Origin: Pyrenophora tritici-repentis
Taxonomy: Eukaryota > Ascomycota > Dothideomycetes > Pleosporales > Pleosporaceae
Assembly: GCF_003171515.1 (NCBI RefSeq)
Contig: NC_089397.1
Location: 1,178,001 to 1,242,000 of the forward strand
Direction: 5' to 3'
Length of the DNA: 64,000 nucleotides
Position 1 is the first letter of the stretch; each line of letters begins with the position of its first letter. The translations under genes and the position numbers were made by a program. Positions 151-23,454 of the stretch are shown piece by piece. The notes beneath the pieces are model-generated. The model searched no databases. It was not told the origin of the DNA and saw only the letters and a program-made list of their open reading frames with translations.

Positions 151-3025
151 ATGGAGAGTGCGGCCAAGCGCAAAGCCGGCGGCGCTGCTGCGGCTACGGG
201 TGATAGCGACAATCGCCCTGCGAAGCGACAGAAAGGGACGGTACGTGCAGCCCATGGTGGTGGTGGTTGATGCATCGTCTGCTGCGTTCTGGAGATGCAC
301 GAAGCGTGTTGGTTGCGATGCGGGATGGTCCTTAGACCAGACAAGGAGCGCGCGACACCTGGGGGGCTCGACAAGTAGGCCATCACCCGCTGCCGGCCCC
401 TCCTCGCTCCCGCAACACCACGCGTGCGCCGGCGTGGCAGACGGACAATGGAGGAACATGTAGAAACAATTCTTGGAATGATCGCTGACACCGGACCGCT
501 TGCGTGCAGACCGACACCAATTCAAAGTCAGAGACAGTAGCGTCGACAACGGCGGCGGGCATGAAGTTCCTCGACAGCTTGAAGCAGGCAAAAGACAAGA
601 CGTACGTGCCATGTTGGTCACTAGTGTGGCATTGGCAGCTTCCGGCCTTTCTCGCGAGCAATGGTAGCAATTGGCACTGACAGGACGCAGTGGACGACCC
701 ATAGCAGTCCACTTCCTCACCCTACCAGACAAGGTGCGCTCCACATGCCCTCCTTGCATACCCTCAACTGACCATTTCGTCCAGAATGAAGTACCCGAGT
801 ACTACGAATATACCAAGCTGCCTATTGCCATTGACACCATCGAGGTACGCTATTTTCCCGTGTCAGATGTTAATTCATCTGATACCACTCCTCTCCCAGA
901 ACTGCCTCAGGCCACTTGCTTCTACCAAGTCAATCTCGACTACTTCGTTCCTTTCCTGTGAATCGAATATTCTAGCGGGACATTGCTGATCAATGTCTCA
1001 CAGACAAAACTTAATAATGGAGAGTACTCCAGTCTCGCCCAGGTCGAGAGTGACTGTAAACGTCTGGTCAACAACGCCAAAGCATACAACGACAAGAAGT
1101 CGATTATATACGAGGATGCCGAGCGTCTACGCAAAACGGCTTCGAACTGGATGGTCAAGCACAACCCTGCATATAGGGACGGCAACTATGCCGCTGTAGC
1201 TACACCGATTCCTGGGGAGGACAACTCGACTCCCTCAAGACCACCGCCCCGTGTTGCGGCGACACCACGAACTGCAAAACAGACACCGGCTGGCCCAGAT
1301 ACGGACCGCCCCAGGCGAGCGGCTGCCATTGCAGCATCGGCTACACCGGCACCCTCAAAGCTGCGACTGTCGGCATCTGCTGCACCGGACGACGACGAAA
1401 GCGCAGATTACACGGGCAAGACCTTCCAGCAGGCACAAGAGCAGATCGTGAGGGAGATTATGGACTACGAAGAGTAAGTCGCATGTGCCATGCTGCATCA
1501 CGTTCACGCTAACATCCCTCAGCCAAGGCCTACAGATATTTCTACCTTTCCAAAACCTGCCCTCGCGCAGCTTGAAAGATTATTACCAGTTGATTAAGGA
1601 TCCTATGTCTCTGGCTGCCATACAGAAGAAGGTTCGCGGTGTTGTAGGACGTGACCCCCCGACAGGACACACTCTTTTCAAAACTTGGGACGCATTCGAG
1701 ACCAGCTTCAGCTTGATTTGGACGAATGCCCGTATCTACAACGAAGATGGAAGTGACATCTACAACCTTTCGCTTGAACTCGAGGTATGCATACTATCCA
1801 ACGTGTTCTTTCTCCACACACTGACAAATGTAGGAAATCTTCCACAAGAAGCTCGAAGAAGCCAAGTCCAAGGTCAACGAGCCATCGCAACCGAAACTCA
1901 AGCTCAACATGTCTACCCCCGCACCAGCTCCAAAGCAGCAGCTCAAGCTCAAGCTCAAACCGACTCCAGGCTCAGATCCGAACACTCCAAGCGTACGCGA
2001 TTCTGCTACCCCTGGTGTCATTGTCGACAACGATGCTCTTCTACGACAACAGCGACATGTACTTGACAGCATGGGTAGTAATCGGTCCCCCGTTCCACCT
2101 GGAAAATCCGCGACACCCACTGCAACTGCCAACCCGTTTACCGGTCCGAGAGGTGGCGCTGCGACAATTTCGTCTCTCTCTACTAGCCAAACCAGGACGG
2201 CGGGATCTCCGCCAGCAGTTAATGGTGTGAAGCAAGACGTCCAATCTCCTTCTTTGAGTGCTGTCAGGCCAGCAAGCACTGCACCCGATGGTCAGGCTTC
2301 ACGACTTAGCGTTCAGGCACAAACCCCGCTTCCTCACATGGCTCCTCCGCATGCTGTCTCACGAACGGCGAGTGGTAGTCCGCATCCAAATGGTGCCGTG
2401 CAAAATGGCAACTACGTCCCACCGCATCAGCCGACTTACTACGCACCTCCACCCGTTGCTCGTGTCGATAGCTTCAGGAAGGTGCCACTAAAGAGTGAGT
2501 ACACGCAGCCTTTTTCGTGATTTCATTGCTAACTATCTGATAGGCCATCAAGAGGCATTGATACCAAGTATCACATTGAACACCCACCCCGCTCTTGCTG
2601 CAACTGCGCCCTGGTCTGTCAAAATCCTGGCGGACAAGCGGAAGACAGCGTACAGTGCTACAATGGTTGTCGCGCCCACCAACTCCTATATCCAGGTCAT
2701 ACCTAGGGTTCCCATTGCGCTTACAAGCCGCATGTACCGCCTCTTTGTCACCGTGAACGGCAACAAGACCCTCGAGGCCAACCGTGTCCCCGTAACCGCA
2801 GGCATCAACGGTGCGAGTCCCGGTCCTGGCTACGAAGGCGGCAAGAAGAAGGGCGAACCCTTGTTTGAGGGCAAACTGGCTGCTGGCGTGAACCGCATCG
2901 AAGTCGAGATTGTCGCCGAGAAGGAGCGTAAAGGCCAGGTCGAGAGTGGCAGCGCGAAGAAGGAAGAAGTCGAGATTGAAAAGTGCACCATTTTCCTGCA
3001 TCTACAACGAACACCAGCAAACTAG
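151..3025 (+). CDS. RSC4: RSC-type chromatin remodelling subunit with tandem bromodomains (Rsc4-like)
   Basis: Predicted nuclear subunit of a SWI/SNF-class (RSC) remodeller that reads acetyl-lysine on histones. Eight exons keep one frame: 151-240, 510-601, 691-733, 785-844, 1004-1473, 1523-1784, 1834-2494 and 2544-3025, giving 719 residues. All introns are GT..AG. Bromodomain 1 covers about residues 60-160 (block VHFLTLPDK; acetyl-lysine Asn in KAYND). Bromodomain 2 covers about 256-335 (LKDYYQLIKDPMSL; Asn in RIYNEDG). A Pro/Ser/Thr-rich linker follows, then a folded C-terminal region from about 560. There is no BAH domain or AT hook, which favours Rsc4 over Rsc1/2. The start is the first ATG of a Lys/Arg-rich N-terminus. 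Exon edges are by eye; domain identity is firm and the orthology is inferred. Confidence 0.88.
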
Positions 3026-3951
3026 GACACGCTCGCACACGACGGACGGCTTCAAAAGTACCGATTTCTCCCGAGCCCACCGGTCATACATATATCCCGT
3101 TATATCTACAATACAGTTGGGATTAGGATTGGCTGGTGTTGTGTGCTGTTTCTTCACTTTCCTAAGAGCAAGCATAAGAGCATCGAGAGTTGTGGCGTTT
3201 ATAACATGGCTTGCTTTTGTTTTGATCTTACTTTTTCGTCTTCCGGTGATATACCTCAAATTGGGTGGAAAGGATACGGGTGGATGGTCAATTTTTGGTC
3301 GCGTAGGTCACTTCGGGTCAGGTCAGGTCAGGTCGGGGAAAGGGATGGGGATGGGGAAAGCGCGATGTTTAATTCCGCGATTCAGTACAATTGGGGATGC
3401 ATGCCTGAACCATTGATTGGCAAAGACGTACGTACGTCCGGCATCGATAGCGAAGGAGGAGGAGGATTTCGAAGATGCAATTGATTAGTCTAATGTGTAC
3501 GAAAGAACGTCTTGCAAAGACCATGTCGTGTGTGGGTATCTGTCATGTGGCGTGCAACAATCGTCTGTCGTGCGTTTGACCTCTTTCTCTCTGATCGGAA
3601 TAAGCGACGCTTTTTTGGGTACACAGAATACGATGTGTGTACCACGATATCTGGCTTTCTACCTACGATCTGAAGCCGTTTCTCTGTGTTACCCACGGCT
3701 TTTCGATTGAGGATCCCCGCCTCGGATAAAAAGCAACGCGCTTGCATTGCGCGTGCAGGAGCGGTGTGAGTGCGTAATGCGGTACTACAACTTCTCGTGA
3801 GGGAGGTATGCTGCGTCACCGGGGGTACAGGTGTGGACGGGTGTGTGTGGGTGGGACATGGGGAGGTGTGGTGGGTTATAATAGAGGATGGGGGGGGCGC
3901 TGCTACTCACACCTAACTCCAGATCTCCCAACCCATCTACCAATAACCAAC
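3026..3951. other. Intergenic, no gene seen
   Basis: This is the 3' flank of the bromodomain gene and the leader of the next one. It holds a short GGTCA direct repeat near 3316-3337, pyrimidine-poor sequence and only short overlapping frames with no family resemblance. Confidence 0.6.
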
Positions 3952-4786
3952 ATGGCACCCCCCAGGAGTTCTCCTCGTCCACCCCCGCCTCCTCACACCC
4001 ACTCCCACCACCGCCTCAACCTTCCTCCACTGGACCAAACTCCATTTCCGCGACATGCTTCGTCTGCAAGGCGTAACAGGTGCCATGCGGTTCCGCGCCC
4101 CAGATACAGACACCGGGTACTCACATGCGCTGGAAGACGACACGGGGGAGAGTGGAGAGAAGTTACCCCTGTATTTGTATATGTGCGTGTTGAGTGATTT
4201 GGGGGTTGTGAGGGAGGCGCCGTATTATGGGGTTAGTCGGAGGTTGGATTTGGATGAGGAGAATGGGGAGGGTGATGGGGTGAAGAAGGAGGAAAGGGAA
4301 GAAGATAAGAAGATGGTGTTTGATATCGTAGATGCCAAGTTTGCTGTTTACGAAAAGTTGGTCGGGAGGGGGATGATTCCGGTAGTGGAGAAGAAGACGA
4401 AGTCTGTGCTCATCTGTGTTTCCATCACTCCTTCGTCGCCTTCTTCTACACACACAGATACCGATGCAGCTTTCGTCTCACAATCTCTACACGACTCCCT
4501 CCTGGATACGGTAAAGAAAGCGGTACCGCCGGCTCTCACAACACACTCCTGTATGTATCGCTGGGCGGGTGAGGCAGCGCAACCGGATATGCATCCGTTG
4601 ATTGATATCGGGGTCAGTGGGGAGTGGATGGTGACGGTGTTGGTGGTGGATGAGGAGGGGGAGACGCTGATGAGGGAGCATGTATGTATTTTGGTGGAAG
4701 GGTGGGTTAGTGACGTTGCAATGGGGATTGTTGGGGGAGGAAAAGTGGGGGCTGGGGTTTGGGAGGGGGAGGTCATCATGGGGTAG
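3952..4786 (+). CDS. EthD/dimeric alpha-beta barrel-like small protein, frameshifted near its start
   Basis: The frame open from about 3947 to 4786 encodes a compact protein with TFLHWTKLHFRDML followed by LPLYLYMCVL and DIVDAKFAVYEKL, reminiscent of fungal EthD-like dimeric alpha-beta barrel proteins. No ATG lies in that frame before 4055. The well-placed ATG at 3952 (context CCAACATGGC) is one base out of phase. The two frames meet at a run of six C (3958-3963). With five C the product would start MAPPGVLLVHPRL and run to 277 residues, and the corrected length is an exact codon multiple. No AG acceptor exists between 3971 and 4055, so an intron cannot explain the shift. Either a homopolymer indel in the assembly or a real frameshift; alternatively translation starts at 4055. 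The family call is tentative. Confidence 0.55.
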
Positions 4787-4886
4787 TAGTGGTAGGTATG
4801 TTCAGGTATTGAAAATGCATGTGGCGGGCAGATTGGGTATTCTTTTCTTCTCGTGGGGGAACTGAATATACAATTTAGAGCTTTCT

Positions 4887-5673
4887 CTATGAATGGTCGA
4901 ACCAGCACTTCTTCATAGCCCTCTTGTCTGGAAACCGTCTATACGTAACCTTGACTCTCGGATTCTTATCCCGCATAGTTCTCGTGAAGTTCTCAGTCGA
5001 CTCTTCAAAGTTACTCGCTGTAGTGTAGGACGCTCGTTCCTCTTCTCCCAAGCCATCATCCTCATCCTCATCATCTTCAGAATCCGCATCCATATTTGTC
5101 TGCGGAACCCAGACCTCAAACTCTCCCAGATTTGAAAATGCTTGAAGCTTTGGTGTACTGAGACCGATGTCTCCAGACGTTTCCTCGCCTAGATCATCGC
5201 TACTTTCATATCCTGGATCTTCTACTTCTGCCATACCGTACAAGTCCAGGACATCAGCGCAAACTTGTAGTCTGTGTACTTTGTTTCTCTTGTGTAAGGC
5301 AGTCCAGAACCAGTCTTCATATCGCGCTCGGCAGCTGAAGGACCATGTCAGAAGAGATTGATAATCCATCGTAGCTGTCTCTGCGTAAGTTTGTCGTGAT
5401 ACTATGAGGATGCTAGGCGTTGAGTTTGTTTTCTGAAGAAACCTTTTTGAGACTCGGATAGTGAGGGGAAGGCATAACTTCCATATCTCGTCACGGAGTT
5501 CCCTAGGTAGGCGCAAGATTGGGGACTCGATGGTGTTGCGATGTGCACTGTTACTTTCTTAATATGAGAGGTAATATGTCATGCAGTCGATTGACTGACG
5601 TCTTGATTTGCCAATCCATTTTTGGTGTCGTATCGAAGATTCCATTATTCAACTTTAACAGGGGGGTTGCCAT
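4887..5673 (-). CDS. 2EXR/F-box-like fungal protein
   Basis: Two exons on the minus strand, 5673-5600 and 5547-4887, with a 52-bp intron (GTCAGT..AACAG). The product has about 244 residues. The large frame alone would have to begin at a TTG; the upstream exon supplies an ATG and keeps phase, giving IESPILRLPRELRDEIWKLC. That motif is the N-terminal hallmark of the large fungal 2EXR/F-box-like family (LPxELRxxIW/Y). The rest is poorly conserved, with an acidic stretch (DADSEDDEDEDDG) near the C-terminus. Function is unknown. It converges with the EthD-like gene, leaving 100 bp between stop codons. Confidence 0.7.
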
Positions 5674-14649: not shown

Positions 14650-15215
14650 CAGTAAGGTGCGTCCCTAAGTGCAGAGACACACTGTGTCCCGAGACAGGTT
14701 CACACTACGGACGTCCGGAAATGCTCCTTCTTAATCCTGTCGAGATGTAAATGACACCTAATCATTCTCCAGCTACTACTCCTTAAGTCGACTTACCTCC
14801 GATACAGATTACTATGGTATTAGCTAGGCTATTAATCATTACGTTAACGTCGTCAATCGGCTCTTTAACGACACCCCCCTGTCCATTAACAATTATGCGG
14901 AGCAATTAACTACTCGGAGGGTTGTAAAGAGAGCACGAAGAAGGAAGATTAATTCCTTTAGCTCGTGATCTTATTTCAGCGTAGGAGTGAGCATGCCGGG
15001 AGGTCCGTTGTGTGAAGCAGGCGATCTGTGAAAACGAGCCCGAGCTGGCGCGACGCGCTAGTGTCTCTCAGCATGCATGGGCCTGCATTAGCGCGCTTAT
15101 CCCCCACTGTATTCTATTGTAATGAATTCAGCGCTATGCCCACCCTGTAGCAACTCGAAATAGATGTGGCGCGCGCTGCTGAATTAACATTACTAGAAGC
15201 ATCTAGAAACACGTG
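14650..15215. repeat. Left terminal inverted repeat
   Basis: Reverse-complement match to the right end. Landmarks: 14650-14669 against 19931-19950; GTCCCGAGACA near 14686 against its complement near 19902; the CCCCCCTGT run at 14874-14882 against ACAGGGGGG near 19720; and CGAGCCCGAGCTGGCG at 15035-15050 against CGCCAGCTCGGGCTCG at 19550-19565. The inner edge is approximate. Confidence 0.75.
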
Positions 15216-15333
15216 CATAGTCCTATTCTCCTACGCGCCATGCCCCTTTCTAGGCCAACTTAAAATGCTCACTGCGTACTGTCCCTAACTGCTACCGTCG
15301 TCTCAAGACCGTCGGTAGGATACATGAACAAAG

Positions 15334-18300
15334 TTATTCAGGCATTGACGCAAGATCATTCTCCTGGTGTTGATGCGCACCTGCCTCGAGCAGCATCTTA
15401 ACCACCTGCTCGTGGCCTCCTTCTGAAGCTGCCTGCAGTGCGTTGCCGTACCCTCCACCCTGCGCGTTAACGTCGGCGCCCGCGTCGAGCAGCCTCTTGA
15501 CTACCTGCTCGTGGCCTTCAACTGAAGCTGCGTATAGTGCATTGCTGTACTCTTCGCCCTGCGCGTTGACGTCGGCGCCCTTGTCGATTAGTGTCTTGAC
15601 TACCTGCTCGTGGCCTTCCCATGAAGCTGCCTGCAGTGCATTGCCGTCCTCTCCGCCCTGGGCGTTAACGTCGGCGCCCTTGTCGAGCAGCATCTTGACT
15701 ACCTGCTCGTGGCCTCTAGCTGAAGCTATGTATAGTGCGTTGCCGTACCGTCCACCCTGCGCGTTGACCTCGGCGCCCTTGTCGAGCAGCATCTTGACCA
15801 CCTGCTCGTAGCCTCCTCGTGAAGCTGCCTGGAGTGCATTGTCGTAGACTTCACCCTGCGCGTTAACGTCGGCGCCCGCGTCGAGCAGCCTCTTGACTAC
15901 CTGCTCGTGGCCTCTAGCTGAAGCTGCGTATAGCGCATTGCTGTACTCTTCACCCTGCGCGTTAACGTCGGCGCCCGCGTCGAGCAGCCTCTTGACTACC
16001 TGCTCGTGGCCTCTAACTGAAGCTGCCTGCAGTGCGTTGTTGTAGTCTCCACCCTGGGCGTTGACGTCGGCGCCGTTGTCGAGCAGCGTCTTGACTACCT
16101 GCTCGTAGCCTCCATATGAAGCTGCCTGCAGTGCGTTGCCGAAGCGTCCACCCTGCGCGTTGACGTCTGCACCCTTGTCGAGCAGCGTCTTGACTACCTG
16201 CTCGTGGCCTCTAACTGAAGCTGCCTGCAGTGCGTTGTTGTAGTCTCCACCCTGGGCGTTGACGTCGGCGCCGTTGTCGAGCAGCGCCTTGACTACCTGC
16301 TCGTAGCCTCCATATGAAGCTGCCTGCAGTGCGTTGCCGAAGCGTCCACCCTGCGCGTTGACGTCGGCGCCCTTGTCGAGCAGCAGTCTTGTAATTGTAC
16401 TAAACCCCAACATTGTTGCGTAGTAAAGCGGCATAGGCACGCGATCGAGACTTCTCTCTAAATTCGGCCCTTCCCAAGTACGGTCTGGATCATGCAACCG
16501 GATCCAGTTGAGATATGCAGGCTCCTCTCTGGCCATTAAAGCCATCGTTAGCTGACTGGTTTGTTCTATCTTGTCTCCTGTTTTTCGAAGATGGCTGCTC
16601 CAGAACTCTGCTGTGTACTTTGCAAGTGCGAACGCCTTAAGAGTCTCTCTTGATAATGGTTGCTGAAGCTGGATAAGGTACTCTAAAGAGCTTCTCGTTA
16701 ATGCAATCTGGCATTCGGCCTCTTGCATGCTGTACTGCTTTGCTGACCCCTGCCTGATTCTATCCGACACAAGATACTCCTGCACTGAGTAGTGCGCTAG
16801 CGCGATAATCTGTTGGGCAGGCCTTAATCTTCCGTCCGCTTCGTTCTTCGTGATAGTGACTAGACTAGAGCAGATGTCCAGCACTTCTAGCGGGTCTTCT
16901 AGCACCTCATCACGGTCGAACGCGGGGTCGCGCGCCACGTCAATAGCGACGACTTCAGCGATCTCTTCGACAGACAGCGGCCGCGCAGAGAACGTCAACC
17001 ACTGCAGGATGCGCATCGCATACTTAGAATATTCCTCGCTTATCGTGGAGAGGATGCGGTCGTATGTCTGGTCTAGCGTCCGCGGCAGACTAGCAAGAGA
17101 TTTGCGCAGCATCGCTCGATTGCAGCACTTTCCTAGTGTGTCCAACTGACACACAGCCCATCGGAACCTACGGTACCGTCAGCTGTAACTCTGCGGAGAA
17201 CTAGGTAAAGGCACGTACATCCCGCGAGCTCCGCTCATTAGTGCAGCTTCAATCTCCTGCCTAATAGCGGCGTCCTTGTTCCATTTCGCTAAGCCCTTGT
17301 CGTCACGCAGCCTTTGTTGAACGTATCGTTGTATGTCCTTGTCCACTACGTCCCTCTGAAGACAGATAGTGTCCTCTTCCCCAACGTAACTCTCTAAAGA
17401 CCTCTCAATATCTCGCTCTTTCCGGCTAGTCATAAGCAGGTGTAGGCCGTTAAGCTGCCACCTAGCCACTGTCTCAAGCATGTCCATTAGCTCTGAGCGC
17501 TGTGTACATTCATCAAGGGCGTCAAGAATAACGTAGACCTGTGTGAACTCTTGCATCGCTTGCCGTGTCACTTCTAGAAGCGTATGCAGTGACGGCTGTC
17601 GTTTTCCGTTCTCGCAAGATGAGATCAACGCATCAACGCCCTTGGGTATCACGACCGAACTCTGGAGGAGCTGGTATAGCAGCGAGCGCAGCATAAGCTT
17701 TGGATCCTGTTTCTGTGTATCGTTGAAGTCGAAGTAGAAGTACGCCGTCACCATGCTAGTGTCATCATAGCAGTGCTGCAGCAGATGCTCGATGATGGTA
17801 GAGCTTAGGATCGTCTTTCCACATCCTGGGATCCCATACAGCCACAGTCGCGACGCTGCACTCTCTTTCCATCTCGTGAACTGCTCACCCTCTAGCAACC
17901 AGACTCCGGTCTTAGCCTGCCGCTGCTTATGCGCTTTGTGGTAGTTGGTAGACGGATTAGGCGCCGAAAGCCAGCTGCGTATCTTGTTAAGCTTCTCTTC
18001 TTGGTCTTGACTGCGGCCCTTATGTTTCAGAATAGCCGCGCTTCTCAGCCGCTCAAGTGCGTTCTCTTTGCCTTCGCCATAGATCAGCGGTAGGTGGACG
18101 CCGAATATGCCGAAAAGACAATACGCTCTATCTTCTTCCTCTGTTGTCTGTCGATTCGCTGCCCAAGAGAAACGCTTAGCAACGTCGAACTCGGATAAGT
18201 CGCTCCCTGACAGAGCTTCGATAGGTATGCCTGTAACCTCGTGTATAGGGTGCTGAAGCGACCCCTTGTCCCCTAGCCGCTCTCCCTCTTTAGAGAAGAA

Positions 18301-18759
18301 CTCAACAGAGTAAGGAGCAAGAAGCTCCTGAAGCGTCCAGCCCCGCTTAAACCACCTGCTCTGCTTGAACGCCGACTTACTACCACTTTTTGAGGTGTCG
18401 TTCGCGACGTCTGAAAGGAAGACATAACACCTTTTAGCATTCTGGTACCATCGGAACATAGAGTTAATGGCTTTTGACAGTTCCGTGTTGTTTGCCTTGT
18501 TGATGCAGCAGGTGTCGACCCAGAAGTAGACTAGACCATCCCGTTTAGCCTGTTGCGCGCAGAAGCGAATCTTCCGATATCCTTCCTTGCGTTGTGTGTC
18601 GACGTCTACTGCATTGTCTAGATCTTTCAGATCATCGAAGACCACCTCCTGCTCCCCCCAGGTGTGCGAGAGGATCGCATAGGGAGGAATCTCCTCGCTA
18701 TGTATAATGTCCTTCGTCCATCGAAGCGTCCCGTTGCTTGCGGTGTACAGCAGTCGCAT
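15334..18759 (-). CDS. HET-NACHT-ankyrin NLR (heterokaryon-incompatibility/STAND protein)
   Basis: Predicted cytoplasmic fungal NLR-type sensor. Two exons, 18759-17219 and 17167-15334, with a 51-bp intron (GTACGT..CGTAG) that keeps frame as GARGM-FRWAVCQLD; 1,124 residues. The HET domain is N-terminal (YAILSHTWG near 28; FWVDTCCINK; RGWTLQELLAP near 140). The NACHT ATPase follows, with Walker A GIPGCGKT near 307 and Walker B VILDALDEC near 410, then a helical linker. About ten 33-residue ankyrin repeats (consensus GADVNAQGG..NALQAAS) occupy roughly 770-1105. No frameshift or stop is seen, in contrast with the broken gene around it. It is the only gene inside the inverted-repeat element. Family members recognise a non-self ligand through the repeats and trigger cell death through HET; the ligand here is unknown. 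Confidence 0.9.
15380..16390 (-). repeat. 99-bp tandem repeat array encoding ankyrin units
   Basis: About ten consecutive 99-bp units inside the NLR gene. Differences between units cluster at a few codons (after NAQGG, before NALQ, and in the AASxxG segment). A two-unit block appears twice almost unchanged (RFGN-type plus DYNN-type units), indicating recent duplication or conversion. Confidence 0.85.
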
Positions 18760-19389
18760 CGGGTCTTGTATATATTTGTCTGCACGAGCGGTAGAAGGAA
18801 GTCTTGGAGCCTCGAAGCAGGCTGACAGAATCGACGGCGCACGGCGGCTCGCTCACGTAGGGCGTGGAGATCGTAGCTATCAGGTTTGTTTCGAGTGCTG
18901 AGTGACGGTTTGCTAAGGTAGAGGTGAGGAAGGCTGCCCTCCTCGTTGTTGGGGCAGGCTGCATCTCCAACACCCAGGGCAGGAGGCTGGCCAGGCAGGG
19001 CTGAAAACACATGATCGCGCGACAGCCACCGTGCTGCGAACCGAGAAGTAGGTATTGCCTAAGGACGCGATCTGATAGCTCAGAAAACGCAAGTTACGGA
19101 CAGTCGTTTACTATAAGAGGATGTCAAGATGTCTAAGCAGCGCGTGCTAGTTCGTGCAAGGACACACTGGCCAACTATCGTGGGGCTCGGAACGCAACGC
19201 AGCGACGATAGCGTCAAGAACGACCCGGAACATCTTAAGCGACGCATTTGTCTAACACTAGCAAGCGGTTCTAACGCGGACAACGAAATGCTGTCGATGC
19301 GTATTATGCTGAAAGCTATGTTCACGCAGCCTTCGCCTACCTAATCGTGACCTAAGATTTAAACAGGAGACAGAGCACCCTCGTGCACA
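18760..19389. other. NLR promoter region inside the element
   Basis: 630 bp between the NLR start and the right inverted repeat. It has a short plus frame at 19129-19344 with no recognisable domain. Probable promoter and leader of the NLR gene. Confidence 0.4.
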
Positions 19390-19950
19390 ACCACGGTCGG
19401 GAGCGCTTCTAGAATGCCATCAACATGCGCCACGCCTATTTTGAGAGGTATACAGGACGGGCATAGCGCCGTATTCTTTACGATAGAATACAGCGAGTAG
19501 TGAGTGCGCTAATGCCGGATGATGCATGCCAAGCTACGTTAGCGTATCCCGCCAGCTCGGGCTCGTTTTGAGAAATCTCCTGCTTCGCACAACGGGGCTT
19601 CTGGCATGCACGCTCTCGCGTCGGAGCGATCTCTCAAGCATAGGAAATTGATTATTCTAAGTCGCGCTCTCTTCATAACCCTCCGAGCACTCAATCGCCT
19701 CTTAGAATCGCTAATAAACAGGGGGGTATCGTTAAAAAGCCAATTGACGGCGTTGACGAAACAATTAATAGTACGGCTAACGTAGCAGCAATCTATGTCG
19801 GACGCTAATATTTGTAAGGAGTAACAGATATACAATTATAGTAAACTAATAGTAACTTTACCAGGCTCCAAATGGGAGGCGCCGAAGCTCCGAACCGTCA
19901 ACTTGTCTCGGGACGTGGTGTGTCTCTTTACTTAGGGACGCACCTTACTG
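19390..19950. repeat. Right terminal inverted repeat
   Basis: Partner of the left repeat in opposite orientation. The outermost 20 bases (CTTAGGGACGCACCTTACTG) are the exact complement of the left end. The inner edge, near GCTTCTAGAATG (about 19405), is approximate. Confidence 0.75.
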
Positions 19951-20388
19951 GTTGTGAAGACTCGCTTGAGGACGGCATGTACGATGATTAGAGACTTCCG
20001 TGAATCCCGCTAGGTTCTATCTCGACATTCTGTTACGGTTACTCGACCTTTACTGCAACGTGTAGGAGTACAGTTTTGACTTACTACGTGGATGTAAGTA
20101 GAAATGTTAAACGATTCCGGTCACGCCATGACTTACCATTCCATATCAGGCCAATAAGGAAATTTAGGGAACAGGTTCTTGCATATGTTGTAGAGATGAG
20201 TAACAACCAGGATGATTCCTGTTGTACACTCTATTGTCAACGGTCCTTTTCGTAATATCTTAGTCAAGTTGCACTTGATCAGTCCACATAGAATAGGATT
20301 GTGTTTCCAAAACCAGTGCCTCTTTTGCACCGAACGGCCCATTGCAGCTTCCAGAGTATCTTGATCTTTGACGCGTGTGAGATGATAC

Positions 20389-20445
20389 ATTTCCTATCAG
20401 ACTTTCTGTGGAAAGATTCTTTCCACAGAAAGTCTGATAGGAAAT
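20389..20445. repeat. Perfect 27-bp inverted repeat with 3-bp loop
   Basis: Arms 20389-20415 and 20419-20445 are exact reverse complements around ATT. No flanking duplication was found. It lies inside the DUF6604-like pseudogene at the point where the reading frame changes, so it probably arose by insertion or template switching. Confidence 0.85.
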
Positions 20446-20570
20446 CCAATGGCTGGGAGATGTCTTTCAAACAAAAGGTTTTATAAGCCCCTGATAGGGG
20501 TTGAACGCTTTCCAGAAGCTGTTTTTTCTGGAGTGAAAGTCGAGTGATATCTTTTTTTGCCTCATAGAAT

Positions 20571-20698
20571 CAGACTCCGCAACAATCAATCGGATCGGCA
20601 TGATTGATTCCTATCTAGGTTAAAGGCTGCCTAATGAAGTAATTCTTTAACCTATATAGGAATCAATCATGTCAATCGATTGATTGTTGCGGAGTCTG
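20571..20698. mobile_element. hAT-like MITE with 8-bp target duplication
   Basis: 128 bp, almost fully palindromic. The ends CAGACTCCGCAACAATCAAT and its complement are perfect, with a second matching block (CATGATTGATTCCTAT / ATAGGAATCAATCATG) further in. CATAGAAT occurs directly on both sides (20563-20570 and 20699-20706). TIRs beginning CA with 8-bp duplications fit hAT-type MITEs. Excising it with one CATAGAAT copy restores the host reading frame, which proves insertion into coding sequence. Confidence 0.88.
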
Positions 20699-21946
20699 CA
20701 TAGAATGCATCGCTGATAGAGTCACCAAGAGCGTATTGAAGATCGAGATGTAGCTGCATGCCAAACGTGATCCATATAGCGACCTCATGGGTATCTCGAA
20801 GATGACGCATACCGCGAGTAAGTTCGTCGAACGATGAACCACCACAGAAATCAATTTCTGCTACGGATAGAAATTGAGCCCATTGCAAAGCTTCGAGTAC
20901 TTCTTCCTGGGCCGCTTGGAGTGTGGAGAGATCCTCGTATAACATCAAGAGCCCTGCGTGGTCGTTGGCGCTGAGAGACTGCTTAAGTGCATAGGAAAAG
21001 AGCTTCAGTGCGTTGTAAACATTATAGAAGCATAGTCGCGCATGCTCTTGACCTTGTTCGCTGAGCGTTCCAGTATGGAAGACAAGTGAAGAAGGTAATA
21101 CCAGCATGTTCAAGTTATGTCCATGTTTTTGTAGTAACGGTTCGACAGCGGCGTCCCTATAGAGAAGCAAAGCAGATAAGCACCAAGTCGGATATGTCTT
21201 TGCTGGATACTTGGCTGGTCGAACAAGGGAAGTTTCCAACTCGGTTTCCTTTCGCTGGACTATACAGATAGCTGTGTTGGTCAAAAAGGCCTTTGTGATT
21301 ATGTCCGTTTGATCTTGGAGCTATATGAAAATAAGATGACGTCTGAGAAGCTCGAGTTCCTTTGGGAAAGTCTTGATCTCAAGCCAAAATTCATCTTCAA
21401 TGTTTGACTCATAGGTACTGATCTTGACTTTGGGAACAGATGGCATTTTCCCTAGGTCTACTGCAGTATCCTGGTCATTATCGCAAGTATCATGTACTTT
21501 CAACATGTCGAATAGATTGTCAATAGTTGTTCTCCTCGAAGGCTTTGCGGGGTTTTTCAGTTGCTCGGGTGTCATAATCCTTTGAATACACGGTCTCAGG
21601 ACGTTTAGAGCATCCTGGAGGTAGTCTGCGAAAGCATCATGTTGATCGTCCTTTACAGGGTCATGTCTTGTAGTCCGATACTAGGATGTCACCTCACGTC
21701 GGTATCTGATGGCCCGGGCCAGGATAGTGCACAATTCCATTGGTGGTTTGATGATAGTAGCATTATCGGCTACACATTGTGCCATAGAAGCGAACTCGCT
21801 GTAGTGTATTGTATAACCTTTCAGATTTCCGGCCTTGACACGACGTCGATAACCACATTTTTTGACTCCTGCAGTAGATATCCGGCAATATACTTTGTAT
21901 CCTTCTTGTACTCGGCCCAGTCGTATTGGATTACGTACGGCAACAT

Positions 21947-22310: not shown

Positions 22311-23454
22311 ATGACGAACCTGGACATGTTGCTGCTGAAAGGCGCCTCTGCGAGCGATCCAGAGGAGGGCCTGCAAGAATTGCGCTATACGATTTTGACT
22401 AAGGGCATACCCGCTAATAGTGAAGGCATGGTACGTTCACTACATGTTCATTCGTATACATTGCAATTTGATGTGGCGACAAGCTGTGAAAAGAACTAGC
22501 TCTGACGGCGCTCTTCTGTAGTCGGAATTGCGCATATACATATGGCTCATCCTCCTCAACGCGCCCCCTCTTCGCACCGACGTCTATCTCGATCTCGTCC
22601 GCCAAGGCGCATCTCCAGCGCACGCCAAAATCCAGAACGACACCTTCCGTACATTTCAGGGTGATCCTCTGTTCCGACGACGCGTGACCCAAAATAGCAT
22701 TACACGTGTTTTGAACGCTGTCGCGTGGAGACTCAATGATGCACACGAGGCTCGCGTCAATGGCTGGCAGTCACCACCAACACTATCAGAGTTTGGCGGC
22801 AGTCCTGATACATCGATGATGGGCCGTCATTCAGTGACAGGCGGAACCCGCACAGAAGCATCCACCACGAATGATGCCGAGCAGATTGGCTATGTGCAGG
22901 GTATGAATGTGCTCTGTGGCCCGTTTTTATATGCGGCAAGGAGCGAGGTTGAGGCCTTCACAGGCTTCGAAAAGCTCATCACCCAGGAGTGCCCAGGATA
23001 TGTCAGAGGCTCCATGGAGGGCGTACACAAGGGGCTGGCTTTGGTGGATAGGGTGCTAGAAGTGGTCGATCCCAAATTGTATGGACATCTTATGGCGCAC
23101 AACATGGAGGCTAAGATATATGCATTTGCTTCGGTACTCACCATGTGCGCTTGTACGCCACCATTACCGGAAGTTCTTCAGCTCTGGGACTTCCTCTTCG
23201 CCTACGGACCTCATCTGAACATTCTATGCATCGTCGCGCAGCTGGTTCTTATTCGAACAGATATCTTGAACAGCCCAAGGTGAGCCATTCTCTACCGTAT
23301 GTGCAAATAAGTTTTGCTAATATTATGTAGTCCCAACACGATTCTACGCAACCTCCCCGGTCTGAACGCTCAGAAGATTGTCGCTGTAGCTATGAGCTTC
23401 GCCGGCAAGATACCCGAAGATATGTACGCTGAGATAATCAACCACGCAAAATGA
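22311..23454 (+). CDS. BUB2: TBC-domain mitotic exit/septation GAP (Bub2/Cdc16)
   Basis: GTPase-activating subunit predicted to pair with Bfa1/Byr4 at the spindle pole and restrain the Tem1/Spg1 GTPase. Three exons, 22311-22430, 22522-23279 and 23331-23454; 333 residues, close to family length. The TBC domain fills most of the protein. NDTFRTFQGD carries the arginine finger in the IxxDxxR motif, and IGYVQGMNVLCGP carries the glutamine finger. PPLPEVLQLWDFLFAYGPHLN is a conserved C-terminal TBC block. The start is the ATG at 22311; an in-frame TTG lies just upstream. The C-terminus ends EIINHAK. The Bub2/Cdc16 call rests on the short single-domain architecture and conserved blocks. Confidence 0.88.

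Follow-up and report, generated by a model that had tools for sequence, protein, structure and literature searches.

Introduction

Transposons that carry genes of cellular type between terminal inverted repeats (TIRs) have been described in both plants and fungi. The Pack-MULE and Pack-TYPE elements of plants are TIR elements carrying genes, the cargo of Pack-MULEs usually consisting of captured fragments bordered by target duplications of about 9 bp. In the wheat-infecting fungus Pyrenophora tritici-repentis, a hAT element carrying histone H3 by transduplication is known; the reports (Manning et al. 2013, PMC3538342; PMC6710886, where Pack-MULEs are also mentioned) describe several copies of a cellular-type gene between TIRs, a long form that has a transposase, near-identical copies, and a shorter non-autonomous form. 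Here we describe, from a stretch of 64,000 nucleotides of the P. tritici-repentis genome (C8:1178001-1242000, hereafter the window), a 5295-bp TIR element that encloses a single gene for a NOD-like receptor (NLR) of the HET-NACHT-ankyrin type, and that very probably belongs to a low-copy family of non-autonomous DNA transposons in which the NLR is the resident gene.

This family resembles the histone H3 element in general plan and is set apart from it by TA borders, by the lack of a detected transposase, by old, diverged copies under purifying selection, and by an NLR cargo with apparent domain exchange. It differs from Pack-MULEs in that whole genes persist as cargo and in that the target is TA. 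Starships, fungal mobile DNA that may likewise carry NLR/HET genes (PMC9594970, PMC12134995, PMC9815663), are of very large size and depend on a tyrosine recombinase for their movement, whereas the window element is a 5-kb TIR unit with one gene. The closest described relatives of the receptor itself are HET-D/HET-E (HNWD) of Podospora, with the same HET-NACHT-repeat architecture, active and dead members, and repeats varying at few positions; these have WD40 rather than ankyrin repeats, and the text considered describes no TIR element for them (PMC1805685). Among the titles and opening lines of abstracts listed from the open-licence PMC literature, we found no small TIR elements with NLR cargo.

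Results

Borders and terminal repeats of the window element

The element occupies positions 14653..19947 of the window, a length that includes the dinucleotide TA at its left (14653..14654) and right (19946..19947) borders, the putative target duplication; alignments to other copies end at these same edges. A duplication longer than TA was considered and rejected, TA alone being common to the borders. The left TIR, beginning TAAGGTGCGTCCCTAAGTGCAGAGACACAC (14653..14702, plus strand), lies on the 3' side of the NLR gene, and the right TIR (19898..19947, minus strand) on its 5' side. This repeat of about 50 bp (TAAGGTGCGTCCCTAAGT...) is present at both ends and is followed by inward similarity, so that each end can be treated as a module of TIR and subterminal sequence (14653..15172 and 19428..19947). 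Inverted arms align at 81% (14650-14718 with 19882-19950) and at 71% (14761-15149 with 19451-19839), and when the 520-bp ends are aligned globally they are 69% identical over 519 columns, above all of 60 dinucleotide shuffles (mean 44%, maximum 52%). The family TIR has the sequence TAAGGTGCGTCCCTA. With up to three mismatches allowed, a 28-bp TIR pattern had exactly two matches in the window and none in 100 shuffled sequences. An initial annotation of this DNA had described perfect inverted 20-mers with similarity continuing inward. The inverted repeats and the inward similarity both stand, while the outermost CAG/CTG of those 20-mers belongs to the flank and differs in other copies, which sets the borders at 14653 and 19947.

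The resident NLR gene

Between the end modules lies one gene, on the minus strand. Its first exon (17219..18759) encodes the HET and NACHT (NPHP3_N) domains and is separated by a 51-bp GT...AG intron (17168..17218) from a second exon (15334..17167) that encodes a winged-helix region and the ankyrin array and runs through the stop codon; protein records P0001 and P0002 join the exons identically. The ankyrin array itself (15377..16468, minus strand) is built of 99-bp units whose variation from unit to unit is focused on few codon positions. The 1124-residue product contains HET, NPHP3_N/NACHT and ankyrin repeats together with a weak winged-helix match (23.9 bits, under the 27-bit cut-off), and P. 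tritici-repentis protein records are 100% identical to it over residues 1-700. The predicted product thus has the architecture of a fungal HET-NACHT NLR of HET-E-like type. No defect was seen in the gene and no transposase open reading frame (ORF) was found in the element, as the initial annotation had proposed.

A family of paired copies at unrelated sites

The whole genome assembly (40.9 Mb, 41 contigs) was searched with each element end and with the TIR, and the top candidates were scored, so that copy numbers given here are lower bounds. We term a locus with both ends a paired copy, and one with a single recognized end unpaired. The same ends are paired at at least six further sites: E09 (C8:1633919-1640669), E10 (C2:1737654-1743915), E11 (C7:351382-356851), E12 (C7:361254-366567), E13 (C1:5733490-5738886) and E15 (C1:7568833-7576443). 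With the window copy this makes at least seven paired copies, distributed over contigs C1, C2, C7 and C8 and ranging in unit length from 5.3 to 7.6 kb. TA stands at 14 of the 14 borders, although a TIR beginning with TA would look alike, and the 900-bp flanks of the seven sites are unrelated apart from one shared 130-bp miniature inverted-repeat transposable element (MITE). A scan of viral contigs for the TIR gave no match.

Within these borders the copies are co-linear. Alignments that start at the right TIR edge and extend unbroken across the gene link the window copy to E12 (4205 columns, 82%) and to E15 (4651 columns, 82%), and a single blastn alignment spans element bases 1168-5295 in E12 and 734-5295 in E15, covering gene and right end together; for the paired copies the ends are therefore not independent solo repeats. 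At locus L014, on C10, the border of one copy falls exactly at the TA of GACACC|TA|ATCATT within the end of another copy, and the uninterrupted copy has that TA; the far border of the nested copy was not found. Because the same ends occur at unrelated flanks, with TA borders, co-linear alignments and this nesting, we regard the unit as mobile rather than as two chance repeats. A defined unit, in which two TIRs enclose some 500 bp of subterminal sequence and an NLR gene, recurs at seven unrelated TA-bordered sites, with differing N-terminal parts. TIRs, several copies at unrelated sites and TA borders identify it as a probable non-autonomous TIR DNA transposon, and a cellular-type gene between TIRs without a detected transposase is a feature that it shares with transduplication and Pack-type elements. 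The proposal of a non-autonomous element with NLR cargo, made from the window alone, is in this way upheld by the paired family, inside no copy of which a DDE_1 match was found (150 of 454 DDE_1 candidates in the genome scored).

The same loci could be read instead as an ancient NLR family dispersed by ordinary duplication, the ends being separate MITE-like repeats gathered alongside. MITEs 143-146 bp long whose TIRs are related do occur, forming 19 short facing pairs among the sites listed and being common in two clusters, and some family ends are unpaired (L014 and L016-L020). Yet the ends face each other at seven sites, the alignments continue without interruption from the TIR edge across the gene, the flanks immediately outside are unrelated, and it is not credible that on seven occasions two MITEs should settle at equivalent distances from the gene. 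We consider this explanation largely refuted and quite improbable.

Cargo and exchange of modules

A NACHT gene is present in six of the seven paired copies, five of which also have HET. HET-NACHT-ankyrin genes are found in the window copy, E10, E12, E13 and E15, and in addition at L014. Over the stretch searched, the first exon contains no stop codon in the window copy or in E10, one in E12, three to four in E13 depending on the stretch, and many in L014; E15 has none over residues 1-513, with a TAA beyond. E10 and E15 match the annotated full-length proteins P0032 and P0021, respectively, over residues 1-760 except for the intron, and their genes are probably intact. Complete genes are those of the window copy and of E11, the latter encoding a 1023-residue NLR with two introns, equal in length to recorded protein P0122; its N-terminal part before NACHT differs from that of the HET copies and has no Pfam match at E 0.1. 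The unpaired locus L017 has a full HET domain and ankyrins, with no NACHT match. Genome-wide, first-exon homologues at 74-81% identity all lie in paired copies or L014, except for the fragment C10:4144763-4145822 (75-77%), the one candidate trace of a parental gene outside the elements, all others being at or below 56%. Repeat-induced point mutation (RIP) may have contributed to decay: RIP indices of the copies are not extreme, which speaks against it as the main cause, but E13 and L014 nevertheless carry TAG/TAA stops.

Cargo modules appear to have been exchanged between copies. The P. tritici-repentis record P0204 consists of a HET domain joined to an E11-like NACHT, and P0001 combines the N-terminal part of the window protein with a C-terminus whose last 25 residues equal the E12 reading frame, a combination that may be an assembly error. 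The left end module of the window element is 95% identical over 463 bp to an end of E09 and 83% over 521 bp to the opposite end of E10, and the right shares about 700 bp with the corresponding end of E15 at 90% identity and 530 bp with the unpaired end L017 at 81%. The 3' end of the window element is closer to the 5' ends of E10 (83%) and E13 (81%) than to its own other end (70%), and E10 and E13 share 595 bp at 97% at one end though their genes have diverged to a synonymous distance (dS) of 1.06. On these similarities we take the ends, too, to have been exchanged between copies.

Selection, age and phylogeny

Purifying selection acts on the first exon in five copies: the ratio of nonsynonymous to synonymous rates (dN/dS) lies between 0.15 and 0.23 in all ten pairs, stop codons being skipped. 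When 67 ankyrin units, taken from six loci, are compared, the amino acids vary most at positions 2, 12, 13, 21, 25 and 28 of the 33 and eight positions are invariant; nonsynonymous differences (pN) clearly exceed synonymous ones (pS) at positions 2, 13 and 25, by a simple count rather than a test of selection. This pattern suggests a working recognition surface and resembles that described for the WD repeats of HET-D/HET-E (PMC1805685).

Between copies dS is 0.5-1.06, and in a tree of 42 proteins the ten P. tritici-repentis rows require nine changes, seven of them forced by well-supported branches, where shuffled rows require a mean of 9.1. E12 falls with Clathrospora, the window copy with P. 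teres and Alternaria, and E15 with a Phaeosphaeriaceae protein; P0012 and P0070 form the only P. tritici-repentis pair that groups together. A recent burst is rejected on the dS values and because the P. tritici-repentis rows scatter among other genera. Copies that are old and interleaved with those of other genera are what dispersal by ordinary duplication would also produce. Either old lineages would have persisted with much loss, or the elements would cross species borders. Presence/absence variation, suggested in the initial annotation, gains support at the protein level for the NLR clade: the genes of the P. tritici-repentis records P0009 and P0048, whose best genome matches reach 82% and 80%, are absent from the assembly. 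P0012, P0054 and P0070 had no close match among the fetched copies, the whole genome not having been searched with them.

In a midpoint-rooted tree of 37 proteins of the E11 type, five Teloschistaceae (lichen) sequences and three of four Monosporascus sequences stand among those of Pleosporales. The lichen and Sordariomycete records P0124-P0128 and P0133 are E11-type NLRs at 74-79% identity; horizontal transfer or contamination may account for them, and as several are metagenome-assembled no conclusion is drawn.

A second set of TIRs and associated MITEs

A relaxed TIR search retrieved further facing pairs 4-7 kb apart, mostly with TAACGTCC-type ends. HET or NACHT matches occur in six of the eight facing pairs outside the window family, where a random interval would contain one in 1.6% of cases (binomial P 5e-10). 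This comparison is partly post hoc, as the second TIR pattern was picked after HET genes had been noticed beside three earlier TIR matches, and the expectation uses some roughly guessed contig sizes; two clusters rich in MITEs (C5:3.24-3.37 Mb and C8:2.13-2.31 Mb) had been set aside before the count, save for the ends C5:3252756, C8:2188901 and C8:2143676. The six pairs are C3:1415534-1421770, C6:1870574-1875466, C1:1733039-1737021, C6:1662521-1669430, C1:173636-178504 and C5:1443741-1449489. In the pair C6:1662521/1669430 no ORF of at least 100 residues was found in the 2.2 kb of interior read, and its HET match (C6:1663978) lies outside that stretch. Pairs F (C9:82042-85891) and H (C3:503566-508010) have no HET or NACHT match among the genome-wide matches. 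A strict next-neighbour rule applied to 130 sites, among the matches listed, yields nine other pairs, of which six have HET or NACHT; pair F drops out and two pairs from the MITE clusters enter, both lacking such a match as judged by eye. A cleaner test is offered by four pairs without a HET match (E, F, G and H) that were fixed before the NACHT result was known: two of the four contain NACHT.

The ends of pairs A and E were read and agree within each pair at 64 and 62 of 71 positions, respectively. The left end of A matches the left TIR of the window element at 23 of the first 30 positions but at only 35 of 71 overall, so that it is the outer 30 bases that relate the two sets to each other. 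Single TIR-like sites at C5:1534585, C9:85221 and C7:58482 lie 1-4 kb from HET genes at C5:1535862, C9:87022 and C7:62637; these genes belong to the same wider clade, and further elements with one unrecognized end are possible there.

Both clusters are rich in the short MITEs with related TIRs. L018 and L019 duplicate one another almost exactly, sharing 4.7 kb at 99.8%, so that the MITE-rich regions may represent a segmental duplication. At L018:46-1832 an ORF, presumably hydrolase-like, lies between two 145-bp MITEs and looks like a gene flanked by two solo MITEs rather than one element.

Candidate sources of transposase

No transposase domain was found in the scanned ORFs of the window copy, E09, E11 and part of E12, the scans of E10, E13 and E15 being incomplete. 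The genome contains at least 150 DDE_1 matches, many in open frames, including the Fot1/pogo-type elements, which like the family have TIRs, mostly starting TAAC in those fetched, and differ from it in TIR sequence and in having a DDE_1 gene. A DDE_1 match near the unpaired end L018 was rejected as partner, since it sits between its own inverted repeats (L018:2560-4393) as a separate element, and at L063, one of 30 DDE_1 loci fetched, no inverted repeat was found. Near the unpaired end L020, an 859-residue ORF with a hAT dimerization domain occupies L020:353-2929. TA borders, TIRs and MITEs suggest a transposase of the Tc1/mariner superfamily. As the family TIR differs from those seen at the 30 fetched DDE_1 loci, and no scored DDE_1 match lies inside a facing pair, we do not assign the family to the Fot1/pogo type, although it may work like one. 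From the TA borders, TIRs and MITEs, and from the abundance of DDE_1 matches, mobilization in trans by a Fot/pogo-like enzyme is conceivable, a proposition that we hold to be evenly balanced; if a transposase does act in trans, short MITEs with related TIRs are to be expected.

A further explanation is that larger mobile DNA, namely Starships, carries the elements along, their small TIRs no longer mattering. HET and NACHT genes are reported in Starships of P. tritici-repentis (PMC9594970) and NLRs are described as transposon-carried (PMC9815663). Against this, the unit measures 5.3-7.6 kb, is bordered by TA and TIRs, and is found on four contigs in unrelated flanks; no tyrosine recombinase domain was present among the scanned ORFs of the window copy, E09, E11, part of E12, L017 and L020, captain genes nearby not having been searched for. 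We give this explanation hardly any weight.

Flanks of the window element

To the right of the element, at about 20139..21946 on the minus strand, is a degenerate host gene with in-frame stops and broken frames, a homologue of the DUF6604 protein P0241 of P. teres. The initial annotation had the host gene wrecked on both sides of the insertion. This holds for the right flank; on the left no homologue connects the flank to that gene, as the sole protein found matches the right flank only, and pieces of the left flank have no Pfam match over the cut-off. The right flank also contains a palindromic MITE of another family (20571..20700), which recurs at 98% in the right flank of E15, and a second palindromic repeat (20395-20455). 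In E15 the TIR itself is split by an inserted palindrome about 130 bp long. Beyond the degenerate gene, an ORF with a Rab-GAP TBC domain occupies 22522-23283.

Discussion

The recurrence of one bounded unit at unrelated sites leads us to regard the window element as a member of a non-autonomous transposon family with a resident NLR gene, for which the following scheme may be outlined. A TA-targeting transposase encoded elsewhere, of the Tc1/mariner superfamily and most likely resembling the Fot1/pogo-like enzymes abundant in the genome, would bind the TIRs and move the unit by cut-and-paste. A promoter belonging to the NLR gene, within the subterminal part of the 5' end module, would drive its expression, and the receptor would act as a HET-E-like sensor, the ankyrin array recognizing, NACHT oligomerizing and the HET domain triggering cell death. 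Recombination between copies would swap ends, N-terminal domains and ankyrin units, while selection would keep some receptors intact, with the outcome that the NLR repertoire differs between isolates.

Several observations weigh against this scheme. Unpaired ends occur at at least six loci (L014 and L016 on C10, L017 on C2, L018 on C5, L019 on C8, L020 on C1), and E09, though paired, has no HET or NACHT match, carrying instead ankyrin repeats that adjoin a DUF7580 gene. The copies are old, as the dS values above indicate, and their scatter in the tree would fit ancient paralogues with losses as well as it fits mobility. No autonomous partner came to light: none of the 150 DDE_1 matches scored (of 454 candidates) lies inside a facing pair, placement being judged by eye, and the TIRs seen at the 30 DDE_1 loci compared, most of which begin with TAAC, differ from the family TIR after the opening bases, so that the full-length, transposase-encoding relative anticipated in the initial annotation was not encountered. 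Only nine of 106 HET matches and nine of 43 NACHT matches of the genome are inside facing pairs; most NLR-class genes are not in such elements. Finally, active transposition and its enzyme are features we infer from copies within one genome.

A broader possibility is a Pleosporales-wide TIR system specialized in allorecognition genes, with at least two related TIR sets, HET/NACHT as standard cargo, and N-terminal effector and ankyrin modules shuffled between copies. The elements would pass from isolate to isolate and perhaps from species to species, and a distinct portion of the NLRs (the nine of 43 NACHT matches) would then form a mobile repertoire. We put this forward tentatively, as a proposal more doubtful than probable. 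It is also conceivable that the element and not the host gains from retaining the NLR, for instance if mycelia or nuclei without it are killed or excluded. Purifying selection on the cargo across old copies, the HET/NACHT cargo in two TIR sets, and the cell-death role that HET-NACHT genes have in Podospora (PMC1805685) accord with such selfish retention; direct evidence for it is lacking, and host benefit through allorecognition predicts the same pattern. We judge it very improbable.

The ways in which the NLR and het repertoires of fungi grow, spread and come to differ between strains remain an open question; the large Starships are already known as carriers. A 5-kb unit with one receptor, present in several copies with apparently exchangeable domains and accompanied by a second, related TIR set that likewise encloses HET/NACHT genes, would provide a simple and testable route for repertoire change, and raises the question whether the receptor serves the host or the element. 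Jumping DNA of this kind may help to reshuffle the receptor set of a wheat-infecting fungus.

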